A stretch of DNA of 64,000 bases, taken from positions 961,001 to 1,025,000 of the forward strand of contig NZ_JAOSLC020000003.1 in assembly GCF_026191475.2 (NCBI RefSeq), written 5' to 3'. Every line of letters begins with the position of its first letter. Position 1 is the stretch's first letter. The translations under genes and the position numbers were made by a program. Shown in pieces: positions 27,106 to 63,698 of this stretch. Source of the DNA: Polaribacter ponticola (GTDB lineage: Bacteria > Bacteroidota > Bacteroidia > Flavobacteriales > Flavobacteriaceae). The notes beneath the pieces were generated by a model. The model was not told where the DNA came from. It saw nothing but the letters and a program-made list of their open reading frames with translations, and searched no databases.

Positions 27106-27675
27106 AATGATTAATTAATTCTGGTTCTACATTTTCTTCTACGATAGCTAATAATCTTTTTCTTGCTCTATATAATTTTACTTTTAAATTAGCTTCAGAT
27201 AAATTGGTTACCTCAATAATTTCCTTTAAACTTAATTCATCAAAGTAAAACATCCAAAGTATAGAGCGTTCTTCTTCTGGCATTTTTAATAAACAATCGT
27301 TCATTACTTTTGCCCTTTCCTTTCTTTCTATTCCTTGTAAAATATTATCAACAGATTTTATCTGATTATATGTTATCTCATTAATTTCTAATGAATTATT
27401 ATGATTTTTATTTTTTTAATAGCATCTAAACACGCATGATACGCTATTCTGTACAACCAAGTACTAAACTTAGAATCTCCTTTAAACTTATGTAAGTTCT
27501 TAAAAGCTTTTACAAATGTATCTTGACTAATTTCTTCTGCTTCCTCTCTATTTTTAGTCATTTTAAAAGCCAAACTAAACACCATATTTTTATAGGTATC
27601 AACAAGATAAGCAAACGCATTTGTATCTCCATTGATGACTTTATTAATATATAGTTGGTCTTTAGTTGTAGTCAT
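27092..27675 (-). CDS. ECF RNA polymerase sigma factor, system 2 (frameshifted)
   Basis: Region 2: AEEISQDTFVKAFKNLHKF and FSTWLYRIAYHACLDAIKK. Region 4: LLKMPEEERSILWMFYFDE and SLKEIIEVTNLSEANLKVKL. The two halves are in different frames; one more A in the minus-strand A7 (27411-27417) joins them into 194 residues. A motif shared with the divergent gene at 28070 lies directly upstream, pointing to autoregulation. The downstream membrane protein overlaps it. Confidence 0.87.
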
Positions 27676-58653: not shown

Positions 58654-59121
58654 CTAACAACATCCAGAACCAGGAGCACAACTAGAACCTTCCATTTCAG
58701 AAAATTGTAATTTTGGCTTTTCTGCAGGAATACCACAAGCATCTAACGCTAAACAAGCAGTAATTTTAGATGTTAATAAAAAATTGGTTCCGTCAAACTC
58801 TAAATTATATTTACCAATTGTTTCTTTACCTTGGTACTCTACTTCAATTTCTAAATCTTCAAACTTAAAAATCTTTTCTGATAACTCTATAATGTTTACT
58901 AATTTTTCTGGGTGTAATCTGTGATCGTAATCATTTTCTTCCCAAAGCTGAAAATTAATAACAGTTTCACTTCTTACTTTACCTCCGCAATCTATAAAGT
59001 CTTTGGTAATTTTACCAACTTCTGTTACGTGAAAATGAGCCGGAACTAATTCTCCGTTTGGTAATTGGAACGCTATTTTTTCTAAACCACTTAAATGACT
59101 TTTAATTTCTGATAATTTCAT
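58654..59121 (-). CDS. DUF6428-family protein of the arsenic-type cluster
   Basis: 155 residues, soluble. The cysteine-rich end (SSCAPGSGCC) and Cys-containing FIDCGGKV and ITACLALDACG suggest metal or metalloid binding. It recurs next to arsR and arsC-like genes in Bacteroidota (family recalled as DUF6428). 5 bp after the phosphatase gene, so co-transcribed. Confidence 0.78.
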   Translation of the reverse strand: MKLSEIKSHLSGLEKIAFQLPNGELVPAHFHVTEVGKITKDFIDCGGKVRSETVINFQLWEENDYDHRLHPEKLVNIIELSEKIFKFEDLEIEVEYQGKETIGKYNLEFDGTNFLLTSKITACLALDACGIPAEKPKLQFSEMEGSSCAPGSGCC

Positions 59122-59126
59122 ATTAT

Positions 59127-59738
59127 TTATTTTTTAATTTGTGAGAATATGTACAACATTTCTGTTGCTATTTGTAAACTTCTTTCTTCATATTTTTCTG
59201 CTTGCTGCTCTGTATTGTCAAACAATTTAGGATCTTCATAAGTAATTGGTATCCTTTTTTCTGCACCAGCAATAAATGGGCAATTTCCGTCTGCGTGAGA
59301 ACAGGTCATAATTGCTGCAAACTCAGAAACAGGATTAAACTCATCATCATATTTTTTAGAAAAAGCAATTATAGGATGAGAATTATCATCAAACTTAATA
59401 GCATAAATAGGATTTTTTGCATCAGCAATTTTCTGAATTTCGAATCCTTGTTTCGTTAATGTTTCACCAACTTTAGGAAACATAGCTGTTGCTTCTGTTC
59501 CTCCTGAATAGGTAGTTACATTATTTATATCAAAATAATTAGCCATAGTTTGAGCCCATATTTGACTTAAATGACTTCGTCTTGAATTATGTGTACAAAT
59601 AAAATTTATGTTTGCTGTTTTATTTGCATCAACTTTATCTTGAACAAAATTAATTAATGGTAGTAAAACCAATTTTCTTTCTTCTGCAATTACATCAGTT
59701 TTTAATTCTGATATTACTTTTTTAATCTTTTGATTCAT
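59127..59738 (-). CDS. Arsenate-reductase-like low-molecular-weight phosphatase
   Basis: 203 residues from the ATG at 59738; an open extension to 59771 overlaps arsR and is rejected. The catalytic P-loop is ICTHNSRRSHLSQ (CX5R), followed later by MTCSHADGNCPF with further Cys residues and YEDPKLFDN with the acid Asp. This matches the thioredoxin-type arsenate reductases. Second gene of the arsR unit. Confidence 0.85.
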   Translation of the reverse strand: MNQKIKKVISELKTDVIAEERKLVLLPLINFVQDKVDANKTANINFICTHNSRRSHLSQIWAQTMANYFDINNVTTYSGGTEATAMFPKVGETLTKQGFEIQKIADAKNPIYAIKFDDNSHPIIAFSKKYDDEFNPVSEFAAIMTCSHADGNCPFIAGAEKRIPITYEDPKLFDNTEQQAEKYEERSLQIATEMLYIFSQIKK

Positions 59739-59761
59739 TTCTTCTTTATTTCTTTTATTTC

Positions 59762-60088
59762 TTAACAACAACTTCCTGTTGAATTTTTATTTAAAAACTG
59801 CCCCATTAAGTTTTGTATTTCTTCCCAATTTTCATCGTGAATACAATAACAAACACTTGTACCTTCAATAGTTCCTTTTATAATACCTACTTTTTTTAAT
59901 TCTTTTAAATGCTGAGAAATAGTAGGTTGTGCTAAACCAATCTCTTTTACCAAATCTCCACAAACACAAGATTCTAATTTTATTAAAAACTCTAAAATTG
60001 CAACTCTAGCAGGATGTCCTAAAACTTTTGCAATAGCAGCTATCTTATTCTGCTCTTCTGTAAATATTTCTGACTTCGTTAAACCCAT
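59762..60088 (-). CDS. arsR: ArsR/SmtB-family metalloregulator
   Basis: 108-residue winged-helix repressor. The metal-binding ELCVC-like motif reads LESCVCGDLVKEI on the recognition-helix side, and the HTH is LAQPTISQHLKELKKVG. It ends in SCC. Family members release DNA on binding arsenite or other thiophilic metals. First gene of arsR - phosphatase - DUF6428; no arsenite exporter lies within the window. Confidence 0.9.
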   Translation of the reverse strand: MGLTKSEIFTEEQNKIAAIAKVLGHPARVAILEFLIKLESCVCGDLVKEIGLAQPTISQHLKELKKVGIIKGTIEGTSVCYCIHDENWEEIQNLMGQFLNKNSTGSCC

Positions 60089-60141: not shown

Positions 60142-61052
60142 CTATATATTTTTAGATAAATCAAACATATAACCTATAGATAAGTTAAAGAAACTTGTGT
60201 TAGATAAAGTGTCTTCTGTAATGGTAGCATTGGGTAAATTTAAGTTATAACCTAACTCAAAATCCCAAGAATTAATAGTTAAAGAAACCGGAAAATTAAT
60301 TTGTGTGTTTAATAAATCAAAAATATCAAAACTTGTAGTTTGCAAAAACCTTTGCCCATTAGACAAAACAATTTGTTCTGTAAATAAAGTTTGTTTTGCA
60401 ATAATAAAATTGATGCTTGGTTTAAAACGAATTCCTAATTTTTCCGTTCTTTTTAATGTAAAATTTACATAAGAGTTAGATACAATTTGATAAGAATTAT
60501 CAGTTCCAAAAATATAAGAAGCAGCTATTGTGCTACCTAATGTTCTTGTTTTATTTCTAATACCAAGACTAACATCAAATGAATTTGTAAAATCATCGTA
60601 CTCTTCAGAATAAAAATATTTGGTGTAACCTATATTGTAAAGTACGTTTTTCTTGCTGCCAATAGAATTAAAATAACCTAAAGAAACACTTGTAAAATCC
60701 CAACTTGGAGCAAAGTTTTCATAATAAATTCCGGAAACACTTGCATTAAAACCAGAGGAATGATAATAAGAAACTTGCGGTATTAAATTAAATTGATCTG
60801 TACCAGAATCTCTACCAGAAAAATAAGTATTACTATTATAAGATACTGATGTGTATAAGAAATTATAAGAGAAACCACTTTCTACAAGTTCATCTAAAAA
60901 TTGCTGATCTTCAAAAAAAGTTCATCAATTAAACCATCTAAATCTTCTAAACTTTCTTCTTGTGCATAAGAACAAAAAGAGGTTGCCATTGAAAACAATA
61001 GCAACCCAAAAACCTTAATTGTGTTTTTAAATCTTATTAAAAGATGCTTCAT
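60142..61052 (-). CDS. Outer-membrane beta-barrel protein of ECF system 3 (frameshifted)
   Basis: 303 residues. The ATG at 61052 encodes a signal peptide (GLLLFSMATSFCSYAQ) and an acidic stretch, then stops. One more base in the A7 run at 60913-60919 opens a frame with alternating aromatic beta-strands (FNASVSGIYYENFAPSW, KNVLYNIGYTKYFYSEEY) to the stop at 60142, ending in an outer-membrane-like terminal strand (LSIGYMFDLSK). The repaired middle has no internal start codon, so automatic callers see only the last 74 codons. Function unknown. Confidence 0.72.
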
Positions 61053-62493: not shown

Positions 62494-62521
62494 TTAGAAC
62501 TACATTTTTTAAAATAGTTTG
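62494..62521 (-). promoter_or_regulatory. ECF promoter motif, system 3, copy before the lipoprotein
   Basis: Minus strand: CAAACTATTT, 13 bp, TCTAA. Identical elements and spacing to 63075-63102 and 63671-63698. Confidence 0.7.
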
Positions 62522-62527
62522 AAAAAA

Positions 62528-63064
62528 TTATAAAATAATTGTTTCAATCATTCCTTCATTTATATAATCATCTAATAATGTGTCTTCTACAAACAAAGAA
62601 TTTAAAATTAAATTATCTAATTTTTGTTCAGAAAGTTCTGCTTTTACTAAAACCTCGTTAAATAAGGTTGCATCTTCAAACGCATCTATTTCAGATTCTT
62701 CTATTAGTAAAGAGTTGATTAAAACATCATCTGAAAAAACAAAAGACTCTATTGTATTAGTTTCTAAACTATTATAATTACTAGAACTTTGCAACCAAAC
62801 TGTTAAGCTAAGTATAAAAACTAAAGAAGCCGCTGCTATATATTTAAATTGAGGTTGCATCCAAATGATGTTCCCTTTTTTAGAAATAACTTCTTCTGTT
62901 ACCTGTTCTTCTTTTATTTTATCTAAAATAGACATCTTAGATTTCACAAAATATCCTTCAGGAATATCTGTTCCTAAATATTTTTTATGATGTTTAGAAA
63001 TATCACCTTTTAAACCTTCTTTTAGAAAGCTTTGTTTGCTGTTATTTTCTGTCGATTTTTTCAT
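62528..63064 (-). CDS. Single-helix protein next to ECF sigma, probable anti-sigma factor
   Basis: 178 residues: a cytoplasmic N-terminus of about 90 residues (HKKYLGTDIPEGYFVKSK), one membrane helix (FKYIAAASLVFILSLTVWL), and an acidic exported C-terminus. The topology is that of a membrane anti-sigma factor. It follows the sigma gene and has its own copy of the locus motif. No conserved domain is visible, so the role is inferred. Confidence 0.68.
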   Translation of the reverse strand: MKKSTENNSKQSFLKEGLKGDISKHHKKYLGTDIPEGYFVKSKMSILDKIKEEQVTEEVISKKGNIIWMQPQFKYIAAASLVFILSLTVWLQSSSNYNSLETNTIESFVFSDDVLINSLLIEESEIDAFEDATLFNEVLVKAELSEQKLDNLILNSLFVEDTLLDDYINEGMIETIIL

Positions 63065-63074
63065 AATATATTAG

Positions 63075-63102
63075 TTAGACCCTACTTTTTAAAAATAGTT
63101 TG
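63075..63102 (-). promoter_or_regulatory. ECF promoter motif, system 3, copy before the anti-sigma gene
   Basis: Minus strand: CAAACTATTT (63102-63093), 13 bp, TCTAA (63079-63075), 11 bp before the ATG at 63064. Confidence 0.7.
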
Positions 63103-63105
63103 GAT

Positions 63106-63645
63106 TTATAAAAATATTTTTTCTTCAATAATTTTTACTGCTGTGTAATAAGTAGATTTTAATGTACTTTCTGATATTTCTAATATTTCAGAAATTTGCC
63201 TAAAACTCATGTCATCAAAATACTTCATATTAAAAACCAGTTTTTGCTTTTCTTTAAAACCGTTTATAATTTTATGCAGTTTTTGCTGAATTTCACCTCC
63301 ATCTAAATAGGCGTCTTCAAACAAGGAGGCTAAATTAGATTCTGAAACCTCATCAATATTATCATATCTTTTTTTGTTATTTTTTTCGAGAAATCTAATA
63401 GATTCATTGTATGCAATTCTATACATCCAAGTATGCAAACTGCTTTTCCCTTCAAACTTTATAATACTTTTATAAATTCTGATAAAAGTGTTCTGTAAAA
63501 CGTCATCTGCGTTTTCATGAGTAGTTACAATTCTTCTAATATGCCAATACAAACGTTCTTGATAAGCATCAAGAAGTTCACTAAAAGCGATATCTTTTAG
63601 TGCAGGATTTTTTAACTTAATTACAAGTTCTGCGTCTTTACTCAA
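63106..63645 (-). CDS. ECF RNA polymerase sigma factor, system 3
   Basis: 179 residues. Region 2: ADDVLQNTFIRIYKSIIKF and LHTWMYRIAYNESIRFLEK. Region 4: GFKEKQKLVFNMKYFDDMSFRQISEILEISESTLKS (split here around MKYFDD). Intact frame, unlike the other two sigma genes in the window. Preceded by the same motif found before its two downstream genes, which points to autoregulation. Confidence 0.92.
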   Translation of the reverse strand: MSKDAELVIKLKNPALKDIAFSELLDAYQERLYWHIRRIVTTHENADDVLQNTFIRIYKSIIKFEGKSSLHTWMYRIAYNESIRFLEKNNKKRYDNIDEVSESNLASLFEDAYLDGGEIQQKLHKIINGFKEKQKLVFNMKYFDDMSFRQISEILEISESTLKSTYYTAVKIIEEKIFL

Positions 63646-63670
63646 GTATTGTTTGGTTGGTTACTATTCT

Positions 63671-63698
63671 TTAGACACAAGATAAAAGAAATAGTTTG
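63671..63698 (-). promoter_or_regulatory. ECF promoter motif, system 3, copy before the sigma gene
   Basis: Minus strand: CAAACTATTT (63698-63689), 13 bp, TCTAA (63675-63671), 25 bp before the sigma ATG. Confidence 0.7.

Follow-up and report, generated by a model that had tools for sequence, protein, structure and literature searches.

The organization of the locus described here is closest to that of the CirY/CirZ-Spy system of Phocaeicola vulgatus, in which an ECF sigma factor, its anti-sigma factor and a Spy-like protein are encoded in one cluster, and for which regulon data exist; in the accessible part of that account, the sigma gene, spy and two other genes go up when the anti-sigma gene is deleted, and spy is described as co-transcribed with cirYZ (PMC13114119). 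Sigma/anti-sigma/Spy cassettes are already known in Bacteroidales from this example, and the word ‘undescribed’, applied to the envelope-stress response in a sequence-only reading of our locus, has to be qualified. The same source deals with EcfO-Reo of Phocaeicola and Bacteroides, a sigma/anti-sigma pair whose proposed role is the sensing of envelope stress and whose regulon includes surface lipoproteins (NigD); Reo is described as spanning from the cytoplasm to the cell surface (PMC13114119). In the flavobacteria, the main-text account of the Flavobacterium psychrophilum promoter map has a single class of ECF type, SM6, whose -10 element includes a CGT box and which is linked to T9SS genes; the set includes one ECF/anti-sigma operon, and other ECF-controlled starts are said there perhaps to await discovery (PMC9723704). 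We found few ECF regulons of Flavobacteriaceae in the openly licensed PMC literature, and among the same texts no paper was found by combining Polaribacter, sigma factor, ECF and promoter, or YHYH, sulfatase and Flavobacteri-.

The window (the whole stretch of DNA that was analysed, 64,000 nucleotides from Polaribacter ponticola) resembles CirYZ-Spy, as far as the accessible account of that system goes, in carrying co-directional sigma, anti-sigma and Spy-like genes, the likeness being one of gene layout, with the Spy identity itself below threshold. It differs in that separate copies of the promoter element precede the anti-sigma gene and the output, in the addition of a lipoprotein gene and a putative barrel gene to the cluster, and in the presence of a further sigma cassette whose -35 element is shifted. 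The lipoprotein gene lies between the anti-sigma and Spy-like genes in the window, whereas none lies between them in L099, L103, L106 and others (L, G and C numbers are our labels for loci, genomes and contigs). The putative anti-sigma factor also departs from Reo, as described, in having one hydrophobic segment (residues 73–91 or thereabouts, by hydropathy) with only about 87 residues beyond it.

Promoters of the sigma-E type have a -10 element TCTAA and an AAC-containing -35 element, and, like those of Escherichia coli RpoE, the predicted promoters in the window have both. As in the RpoE–RseA pair, the sigma factor has regions 2 and 4, and PDB 1or7 is its second-best match among solved structures (1.5e-13). 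However, it scores only 74.0 on the RpoE equivalog model TIGR02939, below the cut-off of 236.15, and the putative anti-sigma factor differs from the RpoE–RseA case in having no match in Pfam or NCBIfam at E up to 1, including no known anti-sigma domain. The likeness to SM6 is that of an ECF-type promoter class inferred in a flavobacterium; in contrast to SM6, the -10 element is TCTAA in all three window copies, without CGT, and the main-text account of the F. psychrophilum ECF promoters has no AAAC...GTCTAA motif (PMC9723704).

We read the locus as an autoregulated cassette of an ECF sigma factor and a putative anti-sigma factor, the sigma factor recognizing CAAACTATTT-N12-KTCTAA and firing three promoters, P1–P3, and perhaps a few distal genes; we give this reading a probability of about 0.8.

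The cassette and its three candidate promoters

Table 1. Features of the cassette, with positions in the window.
Feature	Position	Strand	Basis
P1, candidate promoter of the sigma gene, CAAACTATTT-N13-TCTAA	63671..63698	-	exact match
P2, candidate promoter in the sigma/anti-sigma gap, CAAACTATTT-N13-TCTAA	63075..63102	-	exact match
P3, candidate promoter ahead of the output operon, CAAACTATTT-N13-TCTAA	62494..62521	-	exact match
ECF sigma factor, 179 aa, TTG start	63106..63645	-	Sigma70_r2, Sigma70_r4_2, TIGR02937
Putative anti-sigma factor, 178 aa	62528..63064	-	position, one hydrophobic segment, alignment
Lipoprotein, 288 aa	61588..62454	-	lipobox Cys33, N-terminal alpha/beta domain, doubled Cys-to-Cys stretch
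LTXXQ/Spy-CpxP-like protein, 160 aa	61059..61541	-	PF07813 below cut-off, weak structural matches
Putative outer-membrane barrel gene	60142..61052	-	frameshifted at T run near 60920 in window

The three identical motifs that the sequence-only reading had pointed out (Table 1) are all present with zero mismatches, and none of 100 dinucleotide shuffles of the window held as many (mean 0.00). Each does lie shortly before one of three consecutive genes, with 25 nt from the TCTAA of P1 to the start of the sigma gene, 10 nt from that of P2 to the anti-sigma ATG and 39 nt from that of P3 to the lipoprotein ATG; given the usual start distance, the 10 nt at P2 would leave the anti-sigma message almost leaderless. 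The 10-mer and the 5-mer are identical in the three copies, whereas the spacers and flanks differ.

In the whole genome (3,581,969 bases in five contigs), where the earlier reading had suggested a search, these copies were the only exact matches to the full motif. When up to two mismatches were allowed, 82 matches were obtained, compared with 71 for the pattern read backwards, so the loosened matches are background; a spacer one base longer gave one exact match, and 68 matches against 88 in the backward control. The shorter core, AAACTATT-N14-TCTAA, had five exact matches, namely P1–P3, C2:17339 and C4:60492. Equal frequency inside coding regions had been named beforehand as evidence against a promoter; all five exact core matches were intergenic, compared with 18 of the 25 one-mismatch core loci examined (of 52 listed) that fell inside an ORF of at least 100 aa.

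The sigma factor matched Sigma70_r2 (PF04542; 2.7e-14, 53.1 bits) and Sigma70_r4_2 (PF08281; 1.3e-10, 41.2 bits), both above the Pfam cut-offs, and TIGR02937 in NCBIfam (99.1 bits against a cut-off of 42.9). A short protein with sigma-70 regions 2 and 4, preceded by an apparently autoregulatory promoter with an AAC-type -35 element and a fixed spacer, has at the sequence level what is expected of an ECF sigma factor. The next gene adjoins that of the sigma factor, and this position, together with the lone hydrophobic segment of the product, fits a membrane anti-sigma factor, which the protein presumably is. An alignment of 32 of its 45 listed homologues with the paralogue and the window protein showed a conserved H-x3-LG-x3-P-x2-YF-x2-SK segment N-terminal to the hydrophobic segment.

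In the lipoprotein, a Cys-to-Cys stretch of about 75 aa occurs twice (C133–C206 and C215–C288), and C33, C133, C206, C215 and C288 were invariant in all 19 sequences aligned. The model (pLDDT 85.0) has an N-terminal alpha/beta domain followed by repeated strand–strand–helix units. Residues 50–132 gave weak structural matches (best Z 5.2–5.8), mostly to Bacteroides-group periplasmic proteins, several of them titled DUF2874, and structural comparison of the C-terminal repeats gave nothing clear, a result that does not in itself make them a new fold. A Rib/YPDG domain was considered and rejected, all of its matches being below cut-off.

For the 160-aa protein encoded next, a Spy/CpxP-like identity is the best lead, short of established. 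It scored 19.7 bits on PF07813, below the Pfam cut-off of 24.3; the homologue in L122 scored 20.3 bits, and that in L100 had no LTXXQ match in Pfam. CpxP and Spy filled the top four places of a Foldseek search with the model (pLDDT 73.5), weakly, at E 1.3–2.2; a second structural comparison gave CpxP at Z 5.9 (rmsd 4.9 over 105 residues) and Spy at Z 5.0–5.1, all weak and interspersed with unrelated chains at Z 5.0–5.5. LTXXQ-like motifs are present, and glutamines 40, 66, 92 and 118 were invariant in 40 of 40 aligned sequences (39 of the 47 listed homologues and the window protein). The frameshifted L105 was excluded from all three protein alignments.

The last gene, which had been called a barrel gene, is frameshifted in the window and open in L081 (303 aa), and the L081 homologue has no Pfam match, so that the barrel assignment stands as putative. 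Homopolymer-type breaks were seen both at the T run of this gene and in another ECF sigma gene at about 27158–27621 (C3:988415, C3:988158), which lies in two frames; both breaks may be assembly errors. Directly downstream of the barrel gene, window positions 58654–60088 encode an ArsR regulator, an LMWPc-like protein (below cut-off) and a DUF6428 protein, and on the other side of the cassette about 50 nt separate P1 from the end of a WYL-domain gene upstream.

Conservation of the elements among related loci

Upstream regions were compared, as the earlier reading had also suggested, at 80 homologous sigma loci among the matches listed, from named genomes, the strict element being AAAC-Y-N17-TCTWA. 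Among these, strict AAAC-N18-TCTWA was found within 200 nt upstream of the sigma gene at 55 of 80 loci, around the sigma/anti-sigma junction at 33 of 80, and between the anti-sigma gene and the next gene at 33 of the 66 loci at which both ORFs were found; 16 other spacer lengths (10 to 26) gave 0–5 in these three regions. At the same 80 loci the sigma interior held none at N18, and the 2 kb far upstream held one at N18 and up to six at other spacers. The strict site was absent upstream of the sigma gene in 25 of the 80 listed loci and from the junction in 47.

Among the 20 closest loci in the matches listed, strict sites numbered 6 at P1, 16 at P2 and 20 at P3, and relaxed sites (AAAC-N18-TCNWA) 17, 19 and 20, the count at P1 rising because many P1 copies in Polaribacter carry GTCAAA in place of GTCTAA. 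All three strict sites occurred together at 11 of the 80 listed loci. The part that is fixed across relatives is AAAC-N18-TC; the first C and the last T vary, as does TCTAA itself at P1. The claim that the spacers differ and the elements are invariant consequently holds within the window and not across relatives.

The order sigma, anti-sigma, (lipoprotein), Spy-like, barrel is kept, and recurs in several genera. The lipoprotein gene was found at 19 of the 20 closest loci and at none of the 60 others among the matches listed, and where it was not found (for example L083, L099, L103 and L106) any third site stands before the Spy-like gene. The sequence-only reading had taken the lipoprotein, the Spy-like protein and the barrel together as the output; the conserved order bears this out, although the last two genes would be transcribed from P3 by read-through and the Spy-like protein, as noted above, does not reach the Pfam cut-off.

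A 10-mer and a 5-mer that are identical in three places could also have arisen by recent, functionless duplication of one intergenic segment. The differing spacers and flanks are not what such duplication would leave, and sites are retained at loci in which the sigma factor is only 57–63% identical; together with the conservation and the spacer scan, these results led us to reject duplication, to which we give virtually no credence.

The paralogous cassette and -35 specificity

The P. ponticola genome encodes a second sigma factor of this kind, at about C4:153465–153477, which is 51% identical to the first and is followed by a gene for a TM protein. This paralogous family was found in all 29 genus genomes searched, and 19 of the 29, a set chosen to include carriers, had a second, window-like sigma match. 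A relaxed site with the -35 element TAAACCTTTT was present in 28 of 29 sigma-upstream regions and in 29 of 29 junction regions of the paralogue cassettes, and in the P. ponticola genome the TAAACCTTTT variant had exact matches only at the paralogue cassette, twice. The two cassettes share the -10 element and the spacer, and their -35 elements differ at about three positions; in this genome the exact TAAACCTTTT and AAACTATT site sets do not overlap. The third gene of the paralogue cassette (142 aa in L032) had no LTXXQ match in Pfam, and a Spy-like output common to both cassettes is therefore not established.

The existence of the second cassette bears on whether the elements are promoters at all. 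They might instead be binding sites for a transcription factor, such as the WYL-domain regulator encoded just upstream of P1. ECF promoters, however, are laid out with an AAC-containing -35 element and a -10 element at a characteristic spacing, and the element found here is non-palindromic and bipartite, with AAC and TCTAA in ECF-like spacing 10–39 nt before the gene starts; moreover, a second, paralogous sigma cassette in another place also carries an element of this class, and the bases of the element change together with the sigma group. We therefore rejected the transcription-factor explanation, which we consider very improbable. That the motif copies are promoters is strongly supported, as judged from sequence comparison, because they are conserved in relatives, the spacer length is strict, and a paralogous cassette has the same layout with a shifted -35 element. 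The earlier proposal of a sigma-specific promoter before the sigma factor's own gene, the anti-sigma gene and the output is upheld on the same grounds, the sigma factor itself presumably binding the motif.

For the sigma factors, 20 window-type sequences (the window, L081–L098 and L129) were compared with 29 core-type sequences, 61 of the 80 loci being left out of this contrast. Region-4 positions 164, 167 and 168, which align with S172, F175 and R176 of E. coli sigma-E, residues that we take to contact -35 DNA, separate the two groups. However, 48 of the 179 positions, distributed along the entire sigma factor, do so at a level of at least 0.9, and the data hence do not single out these three. 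Across all sites found, in a comparison that took in all 80 listed loci, position 6 of the -35 element, at which the search admitted only C or T, was T in 60 of 61 sites belonging to S164/Y167 sigma factors, C in 43 of 46 belonging to A164/F167 and C in 42 of 67 belonging to A164/H167. At position 7, A was the base in 50 of the 61 sites of the first class, and T in 45 of the 46 sites of the second and 51 of the 67 of the third. The sequences are related, so these pairings of residue and base are not independent events.

Distal sites and the proposed response

The exact core, with K before TCTAA, was sought in 57 genomes of the genus grouped by their match to the anti-sigma factor. There were 43 sites in the 15 genomes with a strong match (backward control, 16), seven in the four with a weak match (control, 2) and 23 in the 38 without a match (control, 27), and the counts of the strong and no-match groups differed with a Mann–Whitney p of 5.8e-7. 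However, 25 of the 43 sites are the cassettes themselves, and the 18 outside compare with a backward control of 16 in the same 15 genomes, so that the number of distal sites does not by itself exceed chance. The distal regulon is accordingly tentative, the support for some of its sites coming only from the kind of gene behind them.

Surroundings were examined for 12 of the 18 outside sites in sigma-bearing genomes and for 9 of the 30 sites in other genomes; the choice was made by eye and fell mostly on sites with G before TCTAA. Sites on the proper strand, 16–61 nt before an ATG, preceded a YHYH lipoprotein gene in five genomes, a sulfatase lipoprotein gene in two and a gene for a fused sulfatase–YHYH protein in one. 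The two distal core sites of P. ponticola lie 17 and 29 nt before an ATG; that at C4:60492 precedes a di-haem peroxidase gene with a T9SS tail, and that at C2:17339, judged by inspection, an N-terminal remnant of a sulfatase lipoprotein gene, the rest of which is at C2:7485. One example of each kind was assigned by Pfam (YHYH, PF14240; sulfatase, PF00884; CCP_MauG, PF03150), as was a SCO1/SenC gene (PF02630) two places behind one YHYH gene; no YHYH match was obtained in the P. ponticola genome at E up to 0.001. Of the other sites, those of L255 and L260 preceded unrelated genes, six lacked an ATG ORF within 250 nt (L242, L244, L251, L254, L257, L259) and three fell in or across an ORF (L243, the second site of L248, L253).

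Several observations concern the neighbourhoods of these sites. The sulfatase lipoprotein gene of P. ponticola is seemingly split, its promoter and N-terminus lying at C2:17.3 kb beside a transposase-like ORF, presumably of the IS110 type, and its remainder at C2:7485–8336, about 9 kb away. In L245, L248, L249, L256, L262 and L264, YHYH lipoprotein genes are followed by another gene, which we take to be MORN-like, and by a SCO1-type gene; in L262 and L264, the YHYH group is preceded by a small sigma-like gene and an LTXXQ-type gene and followed by genes that are presumably CotH-like. In L242, L244 and L251, a site of the same form lies upstream of a large ORF (>700 aa) beside a gene that we assume to be ABC-permease-like, and one of these genomes (G041) has no anti-sigma match; chance, descent or another sigma factor may possibly account for these three sites.

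When the families behind the sites were approached from the genes, AAAC-N18-TCTWA was present in 17 of 40 upstream regions, compared with two for 12 other spacers together; eight of the 17 sites (L269, L271, L272, L273, L278, L286, L290, L305) had themselves led to those genes, and the independent finds amount to 9 of 32. By class, sites were found for 6 of 11 YHYH genes, 1 of 6 in a second YHYH group, 3 of 10 sulfatase genes, 6 of 8 fused genes and 1 of 5 peroxidase genes. By their coordinates, peroxidase and YHYH genes adjoin in G025, peroxidase and sulfatase genes in G045, and sulfatase and YHYH genes in G002, G003 and G049. Some genomes also have fusions of sulfatase with YHYH, assigned by Pfam in L252 and judged by length in the others. 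Such changing pairs and fusions suggest that the peroxidase, sulfatase lipoprotein and YHYH genes form one functional module.

The target families also yielded intermediate TAAACTTTT sites, some of them in genomes (G040, G038) that have no window-type sigma match, which would be expected if the promoters were shared, the core paralogue (about C4:153465) also or mainly driving them and the regulon belonging to both sigma factors; the common -10 element and spacer, with about three differing -35 positions, would also fit such sharing. Yet each exact variant in the P. ponticola genome occurs only at its own cassette, or, for AAACTATT, in two more places, and the recognition-helix positions differ between the sigma groups. 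In four genomes that have a target site and one sigma match only, none of the four sites is AAACTATT, which likewise argues against sharing, and we hold it to be doubtful.

We favour the reading in which the window sigma factor serves its own cassette, and its computational support consists of the motif, its strict spacing, its position before three genes in relatives, the gene order, and the parallel divergence of the -35 element and the sigma factor. In the mechanism that we propose, the single-TM anti-sigma factor would hold the sigma factor at the inner membrane through its short cytoplasmic H-x3-LG-x3-P-x2-YF segment until a signal in the cell envelope, probably envelope stress, frees it. 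The freed sigma factor, with RNA polymerase, would then fire the three near-identical promoters, P1 giving more sigma factor (positive feedback), P2 more anti-sigma factor (a separate negative feedback) and P3 the lipoprotein, the Spy/CpxP-like protein and the putative barrel. Distal surface genes may be fired as well, in P. ponticola the di-haem peroxidase gene and the sulfatase lipoprotein stump, and in relatives those of YHYH and sulfatase lipoproteins. Taken as a whole, the observation from which this analysis started was confirmed and its interpretation partly supported; the distal sites and the paralogous system formed no part of it.

The nature of the signal could be a different one. 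SCO1/SenC, CCP_MauG and YHYH among the genes behind the sites, and the ArsR, LMWPc-like and DUF6428 genes directly downstream in the window, would suit a cassette that answers to metals or redox and not to the misfolding of envelope proteins. The LTXXQ protein would then act as a CnrX/ZraP-type metal sensor, with SCO1, di-haem peroxidase and YHYH as the redox output. It is nevertheless CpxP and Spy that head the structural lists, though weakly, and an ArsR homologue was found near the cassette in only 9 of the 20 closest loci among the matches listed (some contigs end early); a metal or redox signal seems to us unlikely, and envelope stress remains our preferred assignment.

A broader picture, which we offer tentatively and at rather less than even odds, is that Polaribacter and its relatives carry two paralogous cassettes, each with separate self-driven promoters for its sigma and anti-sigma genes, and that their -35 elements are split between CAAACTATTT and TAAACCTTTT, the likeliest cause being recognition-helix positions of region 4 such as 164, 167 and 168. 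The two would jointly control a mix-and-match surface module of YHYH lipoprotein, sulfatase lipoprotein, di-haem peroxidase and SCO1, and so make up a two-channel envelope response.

For the family, a comparative promoter consensus takes an anonymous ECF gene to a predicted regulon, and the cassette would present a feedback design in which activator and presumed inhibitor have separate sigma-driven promoters. The paralogue pair amounts to a natural experiment on -35 specificity; the distal sites, should they prove real, would offer a first regulatory handle on the YHYH lipoproteins.
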